Both the position numbers and the translations under genes were made by a program. The notes under the pieces are model-generated. The model made no database searches. It had not been told where the DNA came from and saw only the letters and a list, made by a program, of their open reading frames with translations. From Pontederia crassipes (Eukaryota > Streptophyta > Magnoliopsida > Commelinales > Pontederiaceae): a stretch of 64,000 bases of DNA. This document shows, piece after piece, positions 44,281 to 64,000 of this stretch. The stretch lies in assembly GCA_030549335.1 (NCBI GenBank), contig CM060194.1:62028547-62092546 (forward strand), read 5' to 3'. The number at the start of each line of letters is the position of its first letter. Positions within the stretch are counted from its first letter, which is position 1.

Positions 44281-44289
44281 ATTAGCCCC

Positions 44290-44491
44290 GTAACTTCGGG
44301 AGAAGGGGTGCCTCCTCACAAAGGGGGTCGCAGTGATCAGGCTCGGGCGACTGTTTACCAAAAACACAGGTCTCCGCAAAATCGTAAGATCATGTATGGG
44401 GACTGACGCATGCCCAGTGCCGGAAGGTCAAGGAAGTTGGTGACCTGATGACAGGGGAGCCGACGATCGAAGCCCCGGTGAACGGCGGCCG
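44290..44491 (+). pseudogene. Nuclear copy of a plastid 23S rRNA fragment (NUPT)
   Basis: GTAACTTCGGGAGAAGGGGT, CTGTTTACCAAAAACACAGG, GGTGACCTGATGACAGGGGA and GCCCCGGTGAACGGCGGCCG are bacterial-type 23S rRNA sequence from the domain preceding the peptidyl-transferase region. The wording matches plastid rrn23 as I know it. Several sites differ as C to T or G to A (for example CAGTGATC, ATCGTAAGATC), the pattern expected after methylation and deamination in the nucleus. The ~200-bp piece is embedded in AT-rich DNA with no other plastid genes, so it is an isolated insertion and not a functional rRNA. Confidence 0.92.
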
Positions 44492-45955
44492 CTAATTTTT
44501 GGCATAATTCTTCTTCTGATGATCAATTCAACCTCTGATAAAAAAGATAGACCTTGGTTTATTATATATATATATATTTTTTAACTATTTTCAAAATACA
44601 AAACATAAATTCAATATTTCGGTGAAAGAAAAATAGTAAATTCTTTCAATTTGTAGGTCATAAGTACTTCCATCAAAATTCAAGTAAATCATTTCGTATA
44701 TATGTCTTTAAGGTAAGACTCAAGAGTTGACCACGGTGAATTCTAAAAAGTCAGGCAATACATACTTGTTGGTTCTTAACAAGATTGACAAGATATTGAT
44801 TACCATCTTGTCGCAATTAACTTCTTCCGATGCAACATTCTAAATCAACGAACTTATTCTCTTTGGATCATGGGCCGCACAATTTTACTAAAAAATTATA
44901 TACTCTTCAGAGATTCTATACTCAATACTATTTGCTTTGCCTTTGGCCTTTTTCTAATAGATTTAATGGGGTGCTCCGACTTAAACATCCCTGCTCCTTA
45001 AATCTCAACCGTCCATTTAAACATCAAGAGCTGAAATTTTTTTTTTATTATGCTCGTACTATTCAAGATCAACGGCTCAAAACACGGCCAAATCTTTTCC
45101 AATTTTTTTCTGATAACGCACACACCTAACTCGTTTCTTCTCTCTCCTCACATTCTCTCTCGTCGCCTCTCTCCTCTTCACGACCTCGCCCGCCGAGCGA
45201 TCTCTTGCCTGCCCTCCGGTCGGCCTCATCTCGGATCCACGCCGACGCCTCCCTCGACACCCCCTACGCACGATCTTGCCCGCCGACGTTCTAACTCACC
45301 CGCCGACACGCGATCTTCTTCCACCGATGCATGTCCGGCCATATCTCGCACAGATTTGCATCCCCCAGTCAAATCTGTGTGACTTCCGACTAGATCTGTC
45401 GACCTTCAGCATGCCGACCCTCGGTTAGATCTCGCACAGCGATAGTCCCTGCAGCCATATCTGCGCGCACGCTGAGCTCCATTGACATCGAGCTCGCTCT
45501 GTCGACTTCGCCCGCCCACCGATCTCGTGCATGTCGAGCTCCGCCACCGAGCACGCTCGCCCCACTGCCTGTGACCCACCTCGCCCGCCGAACCCACCGC
45601 CGCTGACCTCGCCCACCATCACCGAGCTCGCCACTTCGCCCACCGCTGCTGACCTCGCCCGTCACCGCTGCCGAGCTCGCCCGTCACCGCTGTCGAGCTC
45701 GCCCTCCCCGTCGCTCGTGACCATCGACCTCGCCCGATGTCGCTGCCGCCGAGATCGCCAGCCCTGACGCCCTCGACCTCGCCCGCCGCCACTGACCTCG
45801 CCTGCTCCGCCTATAATATCCCAAATCTAATTTGTAGATCATTATATGTTTTTATATTATGACTTATGATTGATGAACAATATGATATATGTGTTCGTCG
45901 TAATGTCACTTATCAAGTTTTTAAAATTTTATTCAATTTAAATAAAGTATTAAAA

Positions 45956-47364: not shown

Positions 47365-48009
47365 ATTAAAATATAATTAATAGACATGCTATACTAAAAC
47401 ATATACTCATACCATTAAGTATGCATATAGTTATTAACATGTAGATTAAATCTTAAGAGCCAATTAAATGTTGCCAAGTGACACCTAGGAAAAGTATGTG
47501 TAAAAATATTCAATATAGAAATGTATGAATAAATTATTTAAGTTGTATTATCATAATATATACTTAATAATGAATAATTACTATACATTAATAAGTTATT
47601 TTGGATGTCAAAATTTTATTGGATAAAGAGTTGCTCACATGCAAGCTGCCAGCAAGCTAGCAGCTTGCCACCTCATGCTTAGTTGATTTTTCTAATCGCC
47701 TTTCTTATGTGATAAAAATCAGAAGAAATTTCTCCTGTCTACATTACATGTTTAGAAACTACACATAAATTATCAGTTCTTGATCCTTTTAGTGCGAAGG
47801 AAATGTTATAACACCGATCACTCAAGGTGGCAATTCTAAACCTAAGCTAGTGGTCGTTTTCATGATCATCAATTATTCGTCAAATCTTCTTCCAAAACTA
47901 TGCAATTTACATTGATTGATTCTCTCGAAGCCTTTTTGTTTTGATTTGGAATCAAGTTAATATGTTGTCCGTAGACAAAGTTATATTCTTATATTTAAAG
48001 TACTGTCAC

Positions 48010-48939
48010 TGTCACATTCTCCACCAGCGTGTGATATTATCCGCTCTAGGCCTCGGCCCGCACGGTTTTCCCAAAACGCGTCACCTGGTATCAGAGTAGC
48101 GCACCGGCTCACCTCTATACTCAACATGATATTGTCCGCTCTGCCCCCACCATGGACTCACGGTTTTCTAACGCGTCACACCTGATGAAGGACATGTTCC
48201 CATATATACCCAGCATCTCTCCCGTGACTTATGCATGTGGGAGTAATCCAAGACATGCCCCATGCATCCTTCCCCCTTAGGGGACTCAACGCCCTCGTTG
48301 AGTGATCGCACCCCACCATGCACAGAGGTTCACGTGGAGTAGTGACTCTGATACCATATGTCACATTCCCCACCAGCGTGTGATATTGTCCGCTCTGGGC
48401 CTCGGTCCGTACGGTTTTCCCAAAACGCGTCACATGTTATCAGAGTAGCGCAGCGGCTCACCTCTATACTCAGCATGATATTGTCCGCTCTGCCCTCACC
48501 CTGGTGAAGGACATGTTATCATTGATGCATGGGGCATGCCTTGGATTAGTCCCGCATGCATAAGTCACGGGAGATATGTTGGGTATATATGGGAACATGT
48601 CCTTTACCAGGTGTGACGTATTTTAGTAAAACCGTGCGGGCCGAGGCCCAGAGCGGATAATATCACACGCTGATGGAGAATGTTACATATGGTATCAGAG
48701 TCACTCCGCGTGAGCCTCTGTGCATGGTGGGGTGCGATCACTCAACGAGAACGTTGAGTCCCCTAAGGAGGGAAGGATGCATGGGGCATGCCTTGGATTA
48801 GTCCCACATGCATAAGTCACGGGAGAGATGCTGGGTATATATGAGAACATGTCCTTCACTAGGTGTGACGCGTTTTGGTAAAACCGTGCGGGCCAAGGCC
48901 CAGAGCGGACAATATCACACGCTGGTGGAAAACGTTACA
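48010..48939. mobile_element. Palindromic pair of TRIM retrotransposons with one target duplication
   Basis: Plus-strand copy: LTR 48,526-48,687 and LTR 48,778-48,939, each 162 bp (TGCATGGGGC...GTTACA), enclosing a 90-bp interior with a primer-binding site TGGTATCAGAG (48,690-48,700) and a purine tract (AAGGAGGGAAGG) before the second LTR. Minus-strand copy: LTR 48,010-48,266 (257 bp, carrying a ~95-bp extra segment), interior 48,267-48,358, LTR 48,359 to about 48,516, truncated. GTCAC stands outside both outer ends (48,005-48,009 and 48,940-48,944). The block GACGCGTTTTGGTAAAACC...GGACAATATCACACGC recalls TRIM LTR ends known from other plants. No coding capacity. Confidence 0.85.
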
Positions 48940-48944
48940 GTCAC

Positions 48945-53264: not shown

Positions 53265-53745
53265 TTAGGGGTATTCACCGGGTCGGATCGATCCGGCGAA
53301 CCTGAAGATCCGACTCGATCCGGCCTACTTTTAGGTCAGGTCGATCTCGGGATTCGACATGCTCTGACCCCTTCCGACTCGATGACCTAGGTTTTTCTTC
53401 TTTTTTTTTATTTTAAATTATCTTTTTGTTAATTTAAGAGTTTTATAACATTACAAATGAAAATAATATAAAATAAACTATTTTAAATGTAGAAAAAATA
53501 TATAAATATTATTAAAAAATATGCTTTGATATTTAAAAATATTTTATTTAGTATTAAAAAGTAATAAATAGTTTTTATATTTAAAAATAAAAAGAAAAAA
53601 AATTAAAAAAGATCGGATTAAGTAATCCGATCACCTGCCCCAACCCGGCTCATCCAAAAAAAAAAAAAAGAAAAATCCTACCCGGCCAAATTTGATCGGT
53701 CGGATCGAGTTTATTCGCGAGTCAGGTCAATGCGTTCAATTTGTC
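53265..53745. mobile_element. Probable hAT-type MITE, second copy of the GGTCGG family
   Basis: GGGGTATTCACCGGGTCGGATCG at the left, AT-rich centre, and GATCGGTCGGATCGAG at the right. Compare 25,045-25,440. Confidence 0.45.
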
Positions 53746-53754
53746 CTTGTGTAC

Positions 53755-54045
53755 ACATATTTCTAACACATCACACCTACCTAGCATATCTTTGATTACT
53801 TGTGTGGGATTAACTCAAAGCATATATATTGCATAGGGGTCACAACTCGCTGTGGAACAAAAGTTCAGGCATGAGTGACTCTAATTGCATGAAGATGTAT
53901 GCATTGAGTTAGTGCCACTGTGGACAAATCGTGTGAGATATTTTGAGTATATATAAACATTTGATCTTCGACTTAGTGTGATGTGTTAAAAAGATCATTA
54001 GTCCGATAATAAAGTGGCTAATATCACACCGAGTACAAAGATCCC
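53755..54045. mobile_element. Decayed inverted TRIM-like sequence
   Basis: Right part: GAGTATATATAAACATTTGATC, TTAGTGTGATGTGTTAAAAAG, TGGCTAATATCACACCG, which aligns with the LTR at 48,778-48,939. Left part, inverted: CACATCACACCTACCTAGCA, TGTGGGATTAACTCAAAGCA, TGCATAGGGGTC. The layout repeats, in decayed form, the palindrome at 48,010-48,939. Confidence 0.45.
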
Positions 54046-54989: not shown

Positions 54990-56810
54990 GACTCGTAAGT
55001 GCTTCTCACCATTTTTAGCGCCACGAAGGAGAGAAAGCAAGAGGAAGAGCAAGAGAGCAGTCGGCGTTTCTTCCTTGTTTATTTCGATCTCTTTCCAAGG
55101 TGAGCTCTTTTTCTTCTTCTTCCTCATTAGTTATTATAACAATGTTTTTTTCTCGCTATTTTTTTGTGCACACGATCGATTGGTACATGGTTCTTTGCAT
55201 TGCTATTCCTATTTCGGTCAATTTATTTATGTTTTTTTTGTTTCTCGTGTGGGTTTTCGAATTCTCCATCAAACAGAGTGGTTATTAACAGTAAACATTG
55301 ATCTTGTTTTAATCTGTTTTGAATCGTTATGTGGGATTTTTTATGTTTCTTTTCTGTCCCGTTCCTTCCGCAAGATGATGTCCTTTTTTTTCAATTACAG
55401 GGCTACCGAGAAGTTACACAAATTGAGGTAAGAAGTTAACATTTCAGCTGCTCGACTGAGAGGACTTTTTCTATACGAGTTAAAGTTGGATGTTTTTTGT
55501 TGTTCATGTTCCTTTTTTTCTGGAACGAACAAATGAGTTAGCATTTGGCGTTGCAGCCGTCTCGTGTATCTTAGTTCATCATTTGTTCTTTGGAAACCCT
55601 TTTTAACATTCAAAAGGTAGAGGTCAAAGTTGTCTAATTTCTGTGGTTAATTGCTGTTATAATTATTTTGTATTCATTTATGGATCAAGGTGATGAGGTT
55701 TCTAGGAAGGGGTAGATTGTTGCCTTACGGGAAGATTCTGCGCCCAAAATTTAGATGTCAATGCTGAAAATATTCAATTGCGTCAACTCGGATCATAGTT
55801 TTTTTTAGTTTACTTCTTGCTGCAATCTATTTCTTTCATCCATATCTGAAAGCTACTAATTGTGTAGAATTCTATAGTTTGGGTACTCATATATTGGATG
55901 CTAGAAGGTTTCATGCCTACGAATGCAAACTGATTTTCTGCTTTTCATGGGTTCGAACGTACCTTTTGTTTAGACAATTGTCATTGAGGACCGAGGTTAT
56001 CCCTCTTATACAGGATCAAAATGGCAGTGAAATGTTCTAACATTTCACATTCATCTTTTGAATCATGCAGTATGCATACTTTGCCGGTGTGGATTTGTGC
56101 TGCTTTTAGTGCTATCAATCAATTTAACACATGCATGGTTAGATTTTTGAAATTTTACATTCACCGGTCAGAATGGAAATGATTACTGGTCATTATGTTT
56201 CCAACTTGTTCTCACACAATGGATGAGCGTGTATGTTAACTCTCTTTGAAAGAATCTGGTGTTTTAAGTTTTACATTCACTGTTGAATGCATTGCATAAA
56301 CCAATATGAATGTCTACTGCTTGTATTTTCTGTGTGCCCTATCTCGAGACTTAAGCTTGGGCATCGTTTCTTTCTGAAGAGAATCAAACAGATCACAATG
56401 CAACACAATATTAGCAAATTACTGGTGAAGAGTTACATTTCATGGTCCCTTGAATTCCTGGAAATTGCTTTCCTGTCAATGCAAATGTTTTTTCTGCTCA
56501 TTGTGTTATTGCATAAGAGACCTTTGTCCCTTTCAAAAGGATCAAAGTGCCATAAAATTTTATCGTAATTCACTGATGTGCTTAAATAATTTTCATTAAA
56601 CTCCCAATTTAATGGATATTGTACGTCTGCCAATGCAAATGCTTACTATTTATTAACTTTCAGATTTGTCCCTGCATTGGAAGATCATAAAATTCTTGGC
56701 TGATCAAGTTTTTGCTTCTATATATTTGTTTCTAGTCAATGAGATGTAAGCATGTCCAAATGTCCATTTAGCCACCATCATTAGCTGGCCTGCAGTTGTA
56801 ACACACTGCT
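54990..56810 (+). promoter_or_regulatory. Probable spliced 5' leader of the GT17 gene
   Basis: A purine-rich leader-like stretch ends at CTTTCCAAG|GTGAGC (55,099/55,100). TTCAATTACAG|GGCTACC...ATTGAG|GTAAGA gives a 27-bp exon (55,401-55,427). TGGCCTGCAG|TTGTAAC (56,795/56,796) then leads straight into the ATG at 56,811. All sites are GT-AG. Two introns in the leader would fit the absence of introns in the coding part. Inferred from signals only. Confidence 0.45.
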
Positions 56811-57905
56811 ATGGCCAGGAGATCTCTACATGGCCTTGGATCCAGGAGAAAGTTCCCTAACAGAATTCTTGTTGTCCTCTTCATATTCCTGATGCCTGCA
56901 TTTGTTGTTGCAATCGTGCTCCATGGGAAGAAGTTATCCTACTTATTGCGCCCACTATGGGACACTCCACCTCATCCCTTCACCAGCATTCCCCACTACT
57001 ATGCAGAAAATCTATCAACAGAGCAGCTCTGTCAGCTCCATGGTTGGTCTGTCCTGTCCTCTCCTCGTTGTGTGTTCGACACAATTCTCTTCAACAATGA
57101 GGTTGACATTCTTGAGATTCGATACCGTGAGCTACTCCCCTATGTTCACAAGTTTGTGATCCTGGAGTCAAGCACCACATTTACTGGAGTTCCAAAGCCA
57201 CTCTTCTTTACTGACAATCTTCAAAGATTTGAATTTGCAAACCCAAAGATTGTCCATGGGACATTCTCAGGTCAGACAGCTGACCCAAAATTGTACAGGG
57301 ATCCTTTCATGCTAGAAGGCAAGCAGCGGATGGCAGTAAACTTTCTTCTTCGTAAGTCAGGCATCGCACCTGGTGACATTCTTATCATGGCTGATGCTGA
57401 TGAAATACCAAGCCCCAACACAGTTAAGCTCCTACAGTGGTGTGAGGGCATACCATCAGTAATGCATCTGGAACTGAGGCATTATATGTACTCCTTTGAG
57501 TTCCCAGTGGAGTACAGCAGTTGGCGTGCCACGGCGCATATATATGGGCATGGAACACATTATCGGCACTCCAGGCAAACAGATCTAATCTTGGCTGATA
57601 CAGGGTGGCACTGCAGTTTTTGTTTCAGAACAATTGATCAGTTTGTGTTTAAGATGACAGCATACAGCCATGCCGACCGTGTCAGGTGGTCGACCTTCTT
57701 AGATCATTCCAGAATCCAGAGGATCATTTGCGAGGGTGAAGATCTGTTTGACATGTTACCCGAGGAGTACAGCTTCAAGGAGCTGATAAGAAAAATGGGT
57801 GGGATTCCGAAATCCGCTTCGGCTGTTCACCTTCCGTCTTTCCTTCTACGAAATGCTGATAAATTCAGGTTTTTATTACCTGGGGGATGTTCAAGGTCAA
57901 GTTAG
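56811..57905 (+). CDS. GT17-family beta-1,4-mannosyl-glycoprotein N-acetylglucosaminyltransferase-like protein
   Basis: 364 residues in one exon, the usual length for plant GT17 proteins related to animal MGAT3. In animals that enzyme adds the bisecting GlcNAc to the beta-mannose of N-glycans; the acceptor in plants is not established. Residues 1-18 are basic ([12 protein letters not shown]), residues 19-38 form one hydrophobic segment, so a type II Golgi membrane protein is predicted with the catalytic part in the lumen. [12 protein letters not shown], an [10 protein letters not shown] block (118-125), [10 protein letters not shown] (193-202, the acidic DxD-like metal/nucleotide site) and GWHCSFCFR (265-273) are conserved family features. 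The C-terminus FRFLLPGGC is also typical. The ATG lies just after a probable leader splice site and its context is good. Confidence 0.93.
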
Positions 57906-61734: not shown

Positions 61735-62049
61735 GAATATGTGGCGAAAGCGGAGGGCTTGTGCCATTAGGCCCAAACCCGTAGCCCGCCACTGATTCTC
61801 GTGGAGGGTGCGGGGGGCGAAGCCTCTGCGGTATGGACCTTTATACATGGGATTAGGGTTTTATATATATGATGTACTCTCTTTTGGCTCATAGTAAAAT
61901 TCTTTTGGCGGCGGCTTTCTTTGCCCGTGGATGTTTCTCTCTTGTTCACATTGATCAAGAGAGTTTTATCACGTTAAATCTTCGTGTTCATCTTCTCTTT
62001 CTTTCGTTATTTTCATTATTCATCGATCCTCGGTGTTTTATTCCCAACA
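61735..62049 (+). repeat. 5' LTR of a Ty1/copia element (start uncertain)
   Basis: It ends TTCCCAACA immediately before a primer-binding site. Upstream it includes a TATA-like TTTATATATATG near 61,860 and a GC-rich GGAGGGTGCGGGGGGCG stretch common in plant copia LTRs. The 5' boundary cannot be set because the second LTR lies outside the window, and no TGTTGG start is visible. Confidence 0.6.
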
Positions 62050-62052
62050 AAT

Positions 62053-62064
62053 TGGTATCAGAGC
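62053..62064 (+). promoter_or_regulatory. Primer-binding site of the copia element
   Basis: TGGTATCAGAGC, complementary to the initiator Met tRNA 3' end, a few bases after the LTR. Confidence 0.92.
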
Positions 62065-62083
62065 CGAGTTTCTTTTCGCGAAG

Positions 62084-62709
62084 ATGACTACAACGAAGTT
62101 CGACGGGAATACAAATTTCAGTTTATGGCAAGTTCGGATGCTTGCCATCCTAGTTCAGAACGGATTGAAGAAGGTGCTATCGGGTCAGAAGCGTCGGATG
62201 CCATGGAGGCGTCCGCCTGGGAGGAACTCAACGAGAAGGCGTTGTATGCGATCCAATTATGCCTGACGAATGATGTTCTTCAGGAAGTCCTCGCAGAGAA
62301 GACGACGACTGGTCTCTGGACGAAGTTGGAAACTTTGTATCTGACGAAAACCTTAGCAAATCGACTTGTGTTGAAGCAGCGATTGTACACATTTCGTATG
62401 GCCGAAGGTACGTCAATCAAATCGCACATCAGTGAGTTCATTGCCCTAATCAATGATTTGAAGAACGTAGATGCGAAAGTTGATGATGAAGATCAAACCC
62501 TATTACTCCTTTGTTCTCTACCATTTTCATATAAAACTTTTAAAGAGACCATGATCTACGGTAGGGACAAACTCATATTTGAAGATATTAAGGGCAGTCT
62601 ACTGAGCAAAGAAAAGTTGGATAACGAATTGGGATCAAGCAGTAAATCTGATGATCAAGTCTCAGGTCTGATCGCAAGAGGTAGACATCAGACGAGAAAT
62701 CAAAATTAA
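62084..62709 (+). pseudogene. Copia gag, broken by a frameshift and a stop
   Basis: Starts MTTTKFDGNTNFSLWQVRM, the usual copia gag opening. A one-base frameshift near 62,190 moves the reading to the frame that contains SAWEELNEKALYAIQLCLT, the TLYLTKTLANRLVLKQRLY block and LLLCSLPFSYKTF, all typical of the gag UBN2 domain. That frame meets TAA at 62,707-62,709, before the zinc knuckle. Both breaks would stop a full polyprotein. The rest of the gag/pol frame continues directly after the stop. Confidence 0.85.
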
Positions 62710-64000
62710 GATAGATCCAGATCCAAGTCGAAGAACAGAGATAAAGTCTGCAACTATTGCAAGAAGAAGGGTCATATCAAAGTAGAGTGTTATAAATTAC
62801 AGAATAAGAATAAAATGATTAACGATGACAACGAGAAGGGAAATCAAAAGGATGAAGTTGCAGATGCCGGTGTAGCAGAAAGTGAGAATGAAGATATTCT
62901 GTTGGTAACGACATCAAACAAATCCAGATCATCAAGTGAATGGATTCTCGATTCTGGATGCTCATACCATATGTGTCACAATCGAAATTGGTTCTCAACG
63001 TACAAATCTGTTGAAGGTGGAGTCGTTCTTATGGGCAACAATGCTGCCTGTAAGACTATTGGTATTGGGTCCATCCAGATTAAGATGCATGATGAGATTA
63101 TTATGACATTATCTGAAGTCAGACATGTTCCTGATCTGAAGAAGAATCTTATTTCTATCGGTGTCTTAGACTCAAATGGTTGCAAAGTTGTTATTGAGTC
63201 TAATAGAATGAAGATTTCCCGTGGTGCTCTTGTGTTGATGAAAGGCCTCAAAATCGGTAGCTTGTATGTTCTCCAAGGTTCGACAGTGATAGGTTCAGCA
63301 ACAGTCTCATCTACCTCAAAGGAAGATTGCACAAAGTTATGGTACATGCATTTGGGCCATATGAGTGAGAAGGGCATGCAAGTTCTCAACAACAGAGGTC
63401 TTCTTCCTGGTGCAAAAGTTGGAAAATTAGAGCTGTGTGAGCATTGTATCTTCGGAAAGCAGAAGAGAGTTAATTTCGGCTCAGCCATTCATAAGATGAA
63501 AGGAACCCTTGATTACATCCATTCAGATTTATGGGTCCTTTTCAGGTTCCTTCAAAATGAGGAAATAGGTATTTGCTGACATTTATTGATGACTTCTGTA
63601 GAAAAGTTTGGGTCTATTCTCTAAAGCATAAAGATGATGTATTCAAAATATTCAAATCATGGAAGACTCTGTTAGAGAAGCAATCTGAAAAAGTTGTGAA
63701 GAGGCTGAGGACTGACAATGGATTAGAATTCTATAATTCTAAGTTCAATAAATTTTGTGTCAAAAAAGACATCGCAAGACATCACACAGTTGTAAGAACT
63801 CCACAACAGAATGGAGTCGCAGAAAGAATGAACAGAACTCTACTAAAGAGAGCACGATGTATGCTGTCAAATGCAGGACTTGACAAGGAGTTTTGGACAG
63901 AAACTGTCAACCTGGCATGTCACTTAGTGAATCAGTCTCCCCACCAATCCTTAGACTTAAAAATTCCTAAAGAAGTGTGGTCAGGTAATCTTCCTAATTA
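62710..64000 (+). pseudogene. Copia pol, 5' part (zinc knuckle, protease, integrase), runs off the window
   Basis: In order: zinc knuckle CNYCKKKGHIKVEC (62,749-62,790); aspartic protease DSGCSYHMC (about 62,950-62,976), where the canonical DSGC/A motif is kept; the GAG_pre-integrase region with LWYMHLGHMSEKGM (about 63,340-63,375) and CEHCIFGKQKRV; integrase start DYIHSDLW at about 63,510. A frameshift near 63,540-63,575 ends that frame at TGA 63,577-63,579. In another frame the integrase core continues with FIDDFCRKVWVYS, RTDNG and QQNGVAERMNRTLL, so the D-D-E residues survive. Reverse transcriptase and RNase H would lie beyond 64,000. Confidence 0.88.

Follow-up and report, generated by a model that had tools for sequence, protein, structure and literature searches.

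Introduction

An inverted pair of TRIMs within a single target-site duplication is already in print. The report on the maize TRIM SMART (2016, PMC4717578) describes two inverted TRIMs enclosed by one 5-bp duplication (CTTCA), as well as tandem arrays of LTRs and interiors; in the part of that report dealing with this arrangement, the inverted form is a single example, presented beside a typical two-LTR copy with a duplication of its own. Wukong, also from maize, is a small non-coding LTR element that forms multi-LTR arrays (PMC4528315). In the account of its copies, the LTRs mostly point the same way, recombination is offered as the cause, and most of the intact and solo elements have 5-bp duplications. 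Ordinary copies of SMART and Wukong, as described, thus carry their duplications round direct LTRs.

Two further systems concern the fate of cDNA ends. Integrase removes two nucleotides from cDNA ends, and when one end of HIV-1 or ASLV cDNA is defective or blocked, integrase inserts the good end, while the bad end is often truncated and linked by host enzymes to host DNA or, in either orientation, to viral DNA (PMC5041404). As presented there, these aberrant proviruses arise under experimental perturbation, and large duplications or deletions replace the 5-bp repeat. The LTR-LTR circle junctions of the carrot elements Alex1 and Alex3 are described as ends of extrachromosomal linear cDNA joined by NHEJ, with small indels (PMC9324142).

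Structure of the element in the window

The window, i.e. the whole stretch of 64,000 nucleotides of Pontederia crassipes DNA that was analysed, is located on contig C12 of the 1.13-Gb genome. Within it, two miniature LTR elements form an inverted pair of 930 bp (48010-48939) that lies inside one GTCAC duplication, the two copies of which occupy 48005-48009 and 48940-48944. A sequence-only reading of the window had proposed such an inverted TRIM pair, with four LTRs in the order 257-bp inverted LTR, interior, truncated inverted LTR, 162-bp LTR, interior and 162-bp LTR, and all of these parts were found in that order.

The left arm is on the minus strand. It begins with an outer LTR of the long type (257 bp, 48010-48266) with its U5 end outward, which is composed of modules c (48010-48084), b (48087-48179) and a (48180-48266). 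The inverted interior (48267-48358), with a primer-binding-site-like start and a purine tract, is followed by an inverted inner LTR (48359-48522) that has an internal deletion and a truncated U3 end, LTR positions 1-63 being gone. The central junction (48523-48525) consists of one T and GA. The right arm, on the plus strand, starts with an inner LTR of the short type (162 bp, 48526-48687), in which the U3 start TGCATG is intact, and continues with an interior (48688-48777) and an outer LTR of 162 bp (48778-48939) with its U5 end outward. In the right interior, TA precedes the primer-binding-site-like sequence TGGTATCAGAGT (48690-48701), for which we take the matching tRNA to be initiator Met, and the purine tract AAGGAGGGAAGGA is found at 48765-48777.

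Each arm therefore comprises an LTR of 162 bp or 257 bp, an interior of ~90 bp and another LTR; read directly, the LTR runs TGCATG...GTTACA. The 257-bp LTR is the 162-bp LTR with a 93-bp insert, and hence the arms are of two LTR-length types. When divided into modules A (5' part of the LTR, 87 bp), B (93 bp, long LTR only), C (3' part of the LTR, 75 bp) and I (interior, 90 bp), with lower case for inverted modules, the element reads c b a i c b(part) a(part) up to the central junction and A C I A C beyond it. The combination of a left arm with long LTRs and a right arm with short LTRs is present also at loci L002 and L010.

Seven inverted blocks (I1-I7) of 69-114 nt are complementary at 89-93%, and the predicted fold of the strand has an energy of -670.7 kcal/mol, as compared with -304.6 +/- 9.4 kcal/mol for 20 shuffles (z ~ -39); the inverted structure is therefore not due to chance. 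Counted from stop to stop, no open frame of at least 120 amino acids overlaps 48005-48944.

The decayed look-alike at 53744-54045, in which the sequence-only reading saw a hint that the inverted form had spread, is a real head-to-head relative, since four local alignments score 56-77, as compared with shuffle maxima of 42-49. However, it has a junction of its own, in which an inverted interior lies directly against an LTR start, and because this join differs, the look-alike is not a copy of the window palindrome.

Other features of the window include a match to bacterial-type large-subunit rRNA at 44281-44562 (Rfam RF02541, 135 bits), which is most likely a fragment of organelle DNA in the nuclear genome, an uninterrupted glycosyltransferase family 17 frame at 56802-57905, and Copia gag and pol domains (Retrotran_gag_2, Pol_BBD and gag_pre-integrs) near the window end at 61978-63576.

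Empty paralogous sites

Both window flanks, joined after removal of the element, were used as a query against the genome, and 40 places were scored. Thirty-eight of these cross the flank junction uninterrupted at 77-84% identity, and the other two are the home flanks. In all six paralogues fetched from the 38, the left flank leads through one ATCAC (five cases) or ATCAT (one case) into the right flank, and the element is missing. Likewise, complex L016 (1,261 bp, duplication CATCG) has an empty paralogue in L039, where AATCG occurs once. Empty sites with one copy of the target show that a whole complex was inserted at once, and hence that the entire window complex arrived in a single event.

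Head-to-head complexes elsewhere in the genome

Complexes were collected by genome searches with the window element and with an exact LTR/primer-site motif, scoring being limited to the best candidates. The exact motif gave 60 sites in 53 regions, of which 20 (L031-L050) were fetched whole and five more in shortened form; the search with the window element covered two further motif regions, those of L001 and L014. After removal of four duplicate loci, 32 complexes with inverted arms were scored. The L031-L050 set, which represents the first 20 regions in contig order, includes head-to-head complexes at 12 loci and single-direction copies at eight (L041 is the same locus as L004, and at L038 a weak inverted piece of interior lies 250 bp upstream as well). 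The outcomes contrary to the sequence-only reading, namely simple two-LTR copies only in the rest of the genome or separate insertion of the two units at this locus, were looked for and were not what was found.

All 32 complexes switch direction once, from minus to plus, with C (U5) ends outward, and no scored cluster shows the opposite arrangement, with U3 facing outward at each side. The first 100 of 116 LTR/primer-site motifs listed across the genome include five pairs of opposite-strand neighbours at most 5 kb apart, and 5/5 are also arranged minus then plus, although four of these pairs are already among the 32 complexes.

The central junctions of the 32 fetched complexes are 32 different sequences, and that of the window element occurs once in the 1.13-Gb genome, with no second occurrence at up to 3 mismatches. 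These findings rule out the spread of one palindrome, and the suggestion that the inverted form had multiplied as a family had to be abandoned. To judge from the junctions, what recurs is the process of head-to-head joining, each complex being made afresh.

The arms range from one LTR to nine LTRs (nine in L051). L054 contains a direct array of about eight long-LTR units (L054:1-2791) running off the left end of the stretch, and no inverted arm was found within these 2,791 positions. Arms within one complex are 0.879 similar in their C modules, as compared with 0.852 to other complexes, but this comparison is uninformative because transitions dominate the differences.

Target-site duplications

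An exact 5-bp duplication encloses 15/32 U5-U5 complexes, and 20/32 have a duplication when one mismatch is allowed. When left flanks were paired with right flanks of other complexes, the corresponding numbers were 0/990 and 17/990. Twelve of the 32 complexes have no duplication even at one mismatch. Exact duplications were found in 3/13 complexes of the motif-chosen L031-L050 set (L041 being counted through L004) versus 12/19 elsewhere, where most complexes had been found with the window element as the query.

Among single-direction copies bounded by an LTR start and an LTR end, none of 16 has an exact duplication (Fisher p 0.0007), one of the 16 (the second block of L034) being possibly part of a larger complex. 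Copies that begin or end in I, B or partial C (L011, L032, L040, the second block of L048, and L053) were left out of this comparison. Exact duplications are confined to U5-U5 complexes among the scored copies. The inverted units in one target duplication correspond to a TA-TRIM with inverted TRIMs, whereas the duplication round an LTR-interior-LTR unit that marks a TRIM was searched for in the tested copies and was not seen. For this reason, we describe the family as TRIM-derived and as working like a TRIM, but do not class it as a standard one.

A 9-bp repeat round L046 was dismissed as a duplication, as the flanks are themselves repeats. The outermost flanks of L034 are GAAAC and GAGAC and enclose two TRIM blocks and 1.7 kb of a long LTR. 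Fragments of a long LTR adjoin TRIM LTR starts at varied break points in L034 (L034:4262-5988) and upstream in L014, L019 and L026. The long LTR beside these single-direction copies is, judging by its purine tract, presumably of the Ty3/gypsy type; the fragments may be captured cDNA of another element or may have been the target of TRIM insertion.

Bases retained at U3 and U5 ends

In tract-adjacent LTR starts, TGCATG follows AAGGA in 99/145 and AAGGG in 32/145 cases (131/145 together). At the joins of the fetched loci, 36/48 intact LTR starts follow GA (24) or GG (12). There is no G before these two bases in 29 of the 36, in which just two bases of the tract are kept; a G precedes them in the other seven, five of which (L002, L010, L016, L048 and L055) keep the whole AAGGA or AAGGG. 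These longer remnants suggest that primer removal may be imprecise. A genome-wide list of tract-free LTR starts has GA or GG at -2,-1 in 59/75 cases (39 GA and 20 GG; background 0.098), but as the list was drawn up from exact matches to a pattern that bars the tract at -5 to -3 (no G at -3, no A at -4/-5), it cannot on its own prove that exactly two bases were kept. U3 starts without GA or GG amount to 12/48 at joins of the fetched loci and 16/75 in the genome-wide list.

Two kept bases are what is expected, by analogy with retroviruses, on the unprocessed U3 end of a linear cDNA. The GA of the window central junction is read accordingly, as two bases derived from the purine tract and retained from an unprocessed U3 cDNA end. 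The bases at -5 to -3 are TTT in 32/75 of the listed U3 starts, in varied contexts (same-pattern background 0.109); one possible cause of TTT before GA or GG would be untemplated addition of A at the 3' end of the minus strand.

At the other LTR end, the TA located between the LTR and the primer site is kept at 7/7 inner U5 joins, and L018 and L040 retain more of the primer site than TA. In contrast, TA is found at only 2/26 U5 ends with an exact duplication, there as part of the duplication itself, and at 0/10 ends with a one-mismatch duplication; at ends without a duplication it occurs in 12/36. TA is rare at duplications and kept inside, thus the ends at duplications are trimmed as by an integrase and the inner ends are not. 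The first bases of U3 (TGCATGGGGC) and the inward-read U5 end (TGTAACATTC) have only TG in common, which may bear on the apparent failure of the U3 end.

A host fragment within complex L008

Between the arms of complex L008, on contig C2, lie 104 bp that are 100% identical to C12:74174574-74174677, and another related genomic sequence, on C11, matches at 96%. A second copy of the fragment, with one mismatch, is located further right and is joined to a U5 end. The copies lie at L008:1284-1389 and L008:2523-2629, and their joins read ...CATGCA TC, fragment, GA TGCATG... and ...GTTACA TA, fragment, GA TACATG..., respectively. One ACTGT duplication encloses the whole complex. A stretch of 651 bp around the source of the fragment contains no convincing TRIM module, only chance-level matches of fewer than 20 bases. 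The fragment is read as host DNA that was captured, or copied, during end joining, and in our judgement its source is part of a gene.

No near-identical parent of any L008 arm was found among 40 candidates scored, the best (93%) being at the same locus. The two spacer copies match the source at 104/104 and 103/104 bases, and the units differ by 5-11% on average, depending on the module. Dating by LTR divergence was dropped, as was the idea that the L008 units were already divergent when joined. Transitions outnumber transversions about 3 to 6 times in the five complexes examined, and the L008 spacer is CpG-poor, so that much of the divergence could be due to post-insertion decay.

Origin of the complexes

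The explanation that best fits these data, to which we assign a probability of roughly 0.8, is that TRIM-type cDNAs are joined at their U3 ends and inserted via two U5 ends. Reverse transcription would give a linear cDNA whose two ends each carry additional bases, as a rule two, which the joins reveal indirectly as GA or GG before TGCATG at U3 and as TA after ...GTNACA at U5. The U3 end would be neither processed nor inserted by an integrase supplied in trans; that integrase does not use it is suggested by the single-direction copies, 0/16 of which have a duplication at the U3 end. The U3 ends, and sometimes the U5 ends, would then be joined, probably by cellular end joining and often with trimming and added bases, to a partner that in the observed joins is another TRIM cDNA or other DNA, once a host gene fragment. 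Lastly, as the ends, the duplications and the empty sites show, two outward U5 ends are trimmed and inserted, presumably by integrase, which creates the 5-bp duplication round the whole complex.

This explanation has a sub-model, differing in the order of events, in which an intasome holding the U5 ends of two separate cDNAs inserts them at one target, and the U3 ends left free are later joined in the chromosome as a double-strand break. We regard this order as a serious possibility, somewhat short of an even chance. The host gene fragment in a join and the trimmed U3 ends with filler resemble nuclear break repair, and HIV and ASLV with one bad end are described as behaving alike (PMC5041404). 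Unprocessed U5-to-U3 joins within the arms of L008, L025, L040 and L047 look instead like concatemers formed away from the target, but repair could capture such concatemers too.

The sequence-only reading also held that a fused molecule had been integrated as one. The single event stands, as the 6/6 empty paralogues indicate, whereas the routes put forward, fusion in the particle by template switching or autointegration followed by insertion as one cDNA, fit poorly and are unlikely. They agree with the one duplication enclosing the whole element and with some joins being free of filler (L024, L030 and L045). However, autointegration is expected to leave ends trimmed to CA, and 36/48 U3 starts keep GA or GG and 7/7 inner U5 ends keep TA; template switching leaves both this retention and the twice-held host fragment of L008 unexplained. 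Snap-back of one molecule is rejected at the window locus, where an arm with long LTRs faces an arm with short LTRs. The inverted termini TGTNACATT, the 5-bp duplication and the strong hairpin would also suit a cut-and-paste foldback DNA transposon with inverted repeats that are LTR-like by chance, but we consider this very unlikely: rather than the same element with a common centre at many loci, there are 32/32 distinct junctions, with that of the window unique, the arms vary from one to nine LTRs, and primer-site and purine-tract bases are kept as on cDNA ends. Nested TRIM insertions are generally known, and the pair might in principle have arisen when one element inserted independently into another already in place, or by a later local inversion. 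No missing LTR fragment is present on the far side, though, and the empty sites with one target copy and the identical polarity in 32/32 complexes render this origin scarcely credible.

Within the preferred explanation, joining at U3 and insertion via U5, a stronger form can be put forward more tentatively, and we would give it rather less than an even chance. The family would represent a lineage with a U3 end dead for integration, which propagates solely in the form of end-joined complexes carrying two U5 ends; each insertion would be a palindrome assembled anew that can carry host DNA, and host end joining would then be obligate for its propagation.

Comparison with known systems and significance

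The window element is similar to the inverted SMART pair within one duplication (PMC4717578). Unlike SMART, as described there with its two-LTR copy, single-direction copies here have no duplications, and the duplications found enclose U5-U5 complexes. Wukong shares with this family the small non-coding LTR structure and the multi-LTR arrays but, according to its description, differs in the 5-bp duplications of most elements (PMC4528315). The HIV-1 and ASLV proviruses described come from perturbed systems (PMC5041404), whereas in the present genomic family joining at one end seems to be the normal condition, combined with two good ends and a 5-bp duplication. The carrot junctions belong to circles (PMC9324142), and those found here to integrated head-to-head complexes. 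In searches of the open-licence literature, no description of U5-only insertion or of unprocessed-end joins as the normal state of a family was found.

The complexes would serve as a genomic record of unprocessed cDNA ends, and multi-LTR inverted TRIM arrays could be explained without inversion or unequal crossing-over. LTR finders that accept an element only when a duplication flanks its direct LTRs would overlook or misinterpret such families. Going by the predicted fold, the palindromes, if transcribed, would yield long hairpin RNAs, and L008 indicates one way for a piece of a host gene to end up within a retroelement complex. If the proposed explanation is true, a retroelement can persist with one insertion-competent cDNA end, the second being supplied by end joining.
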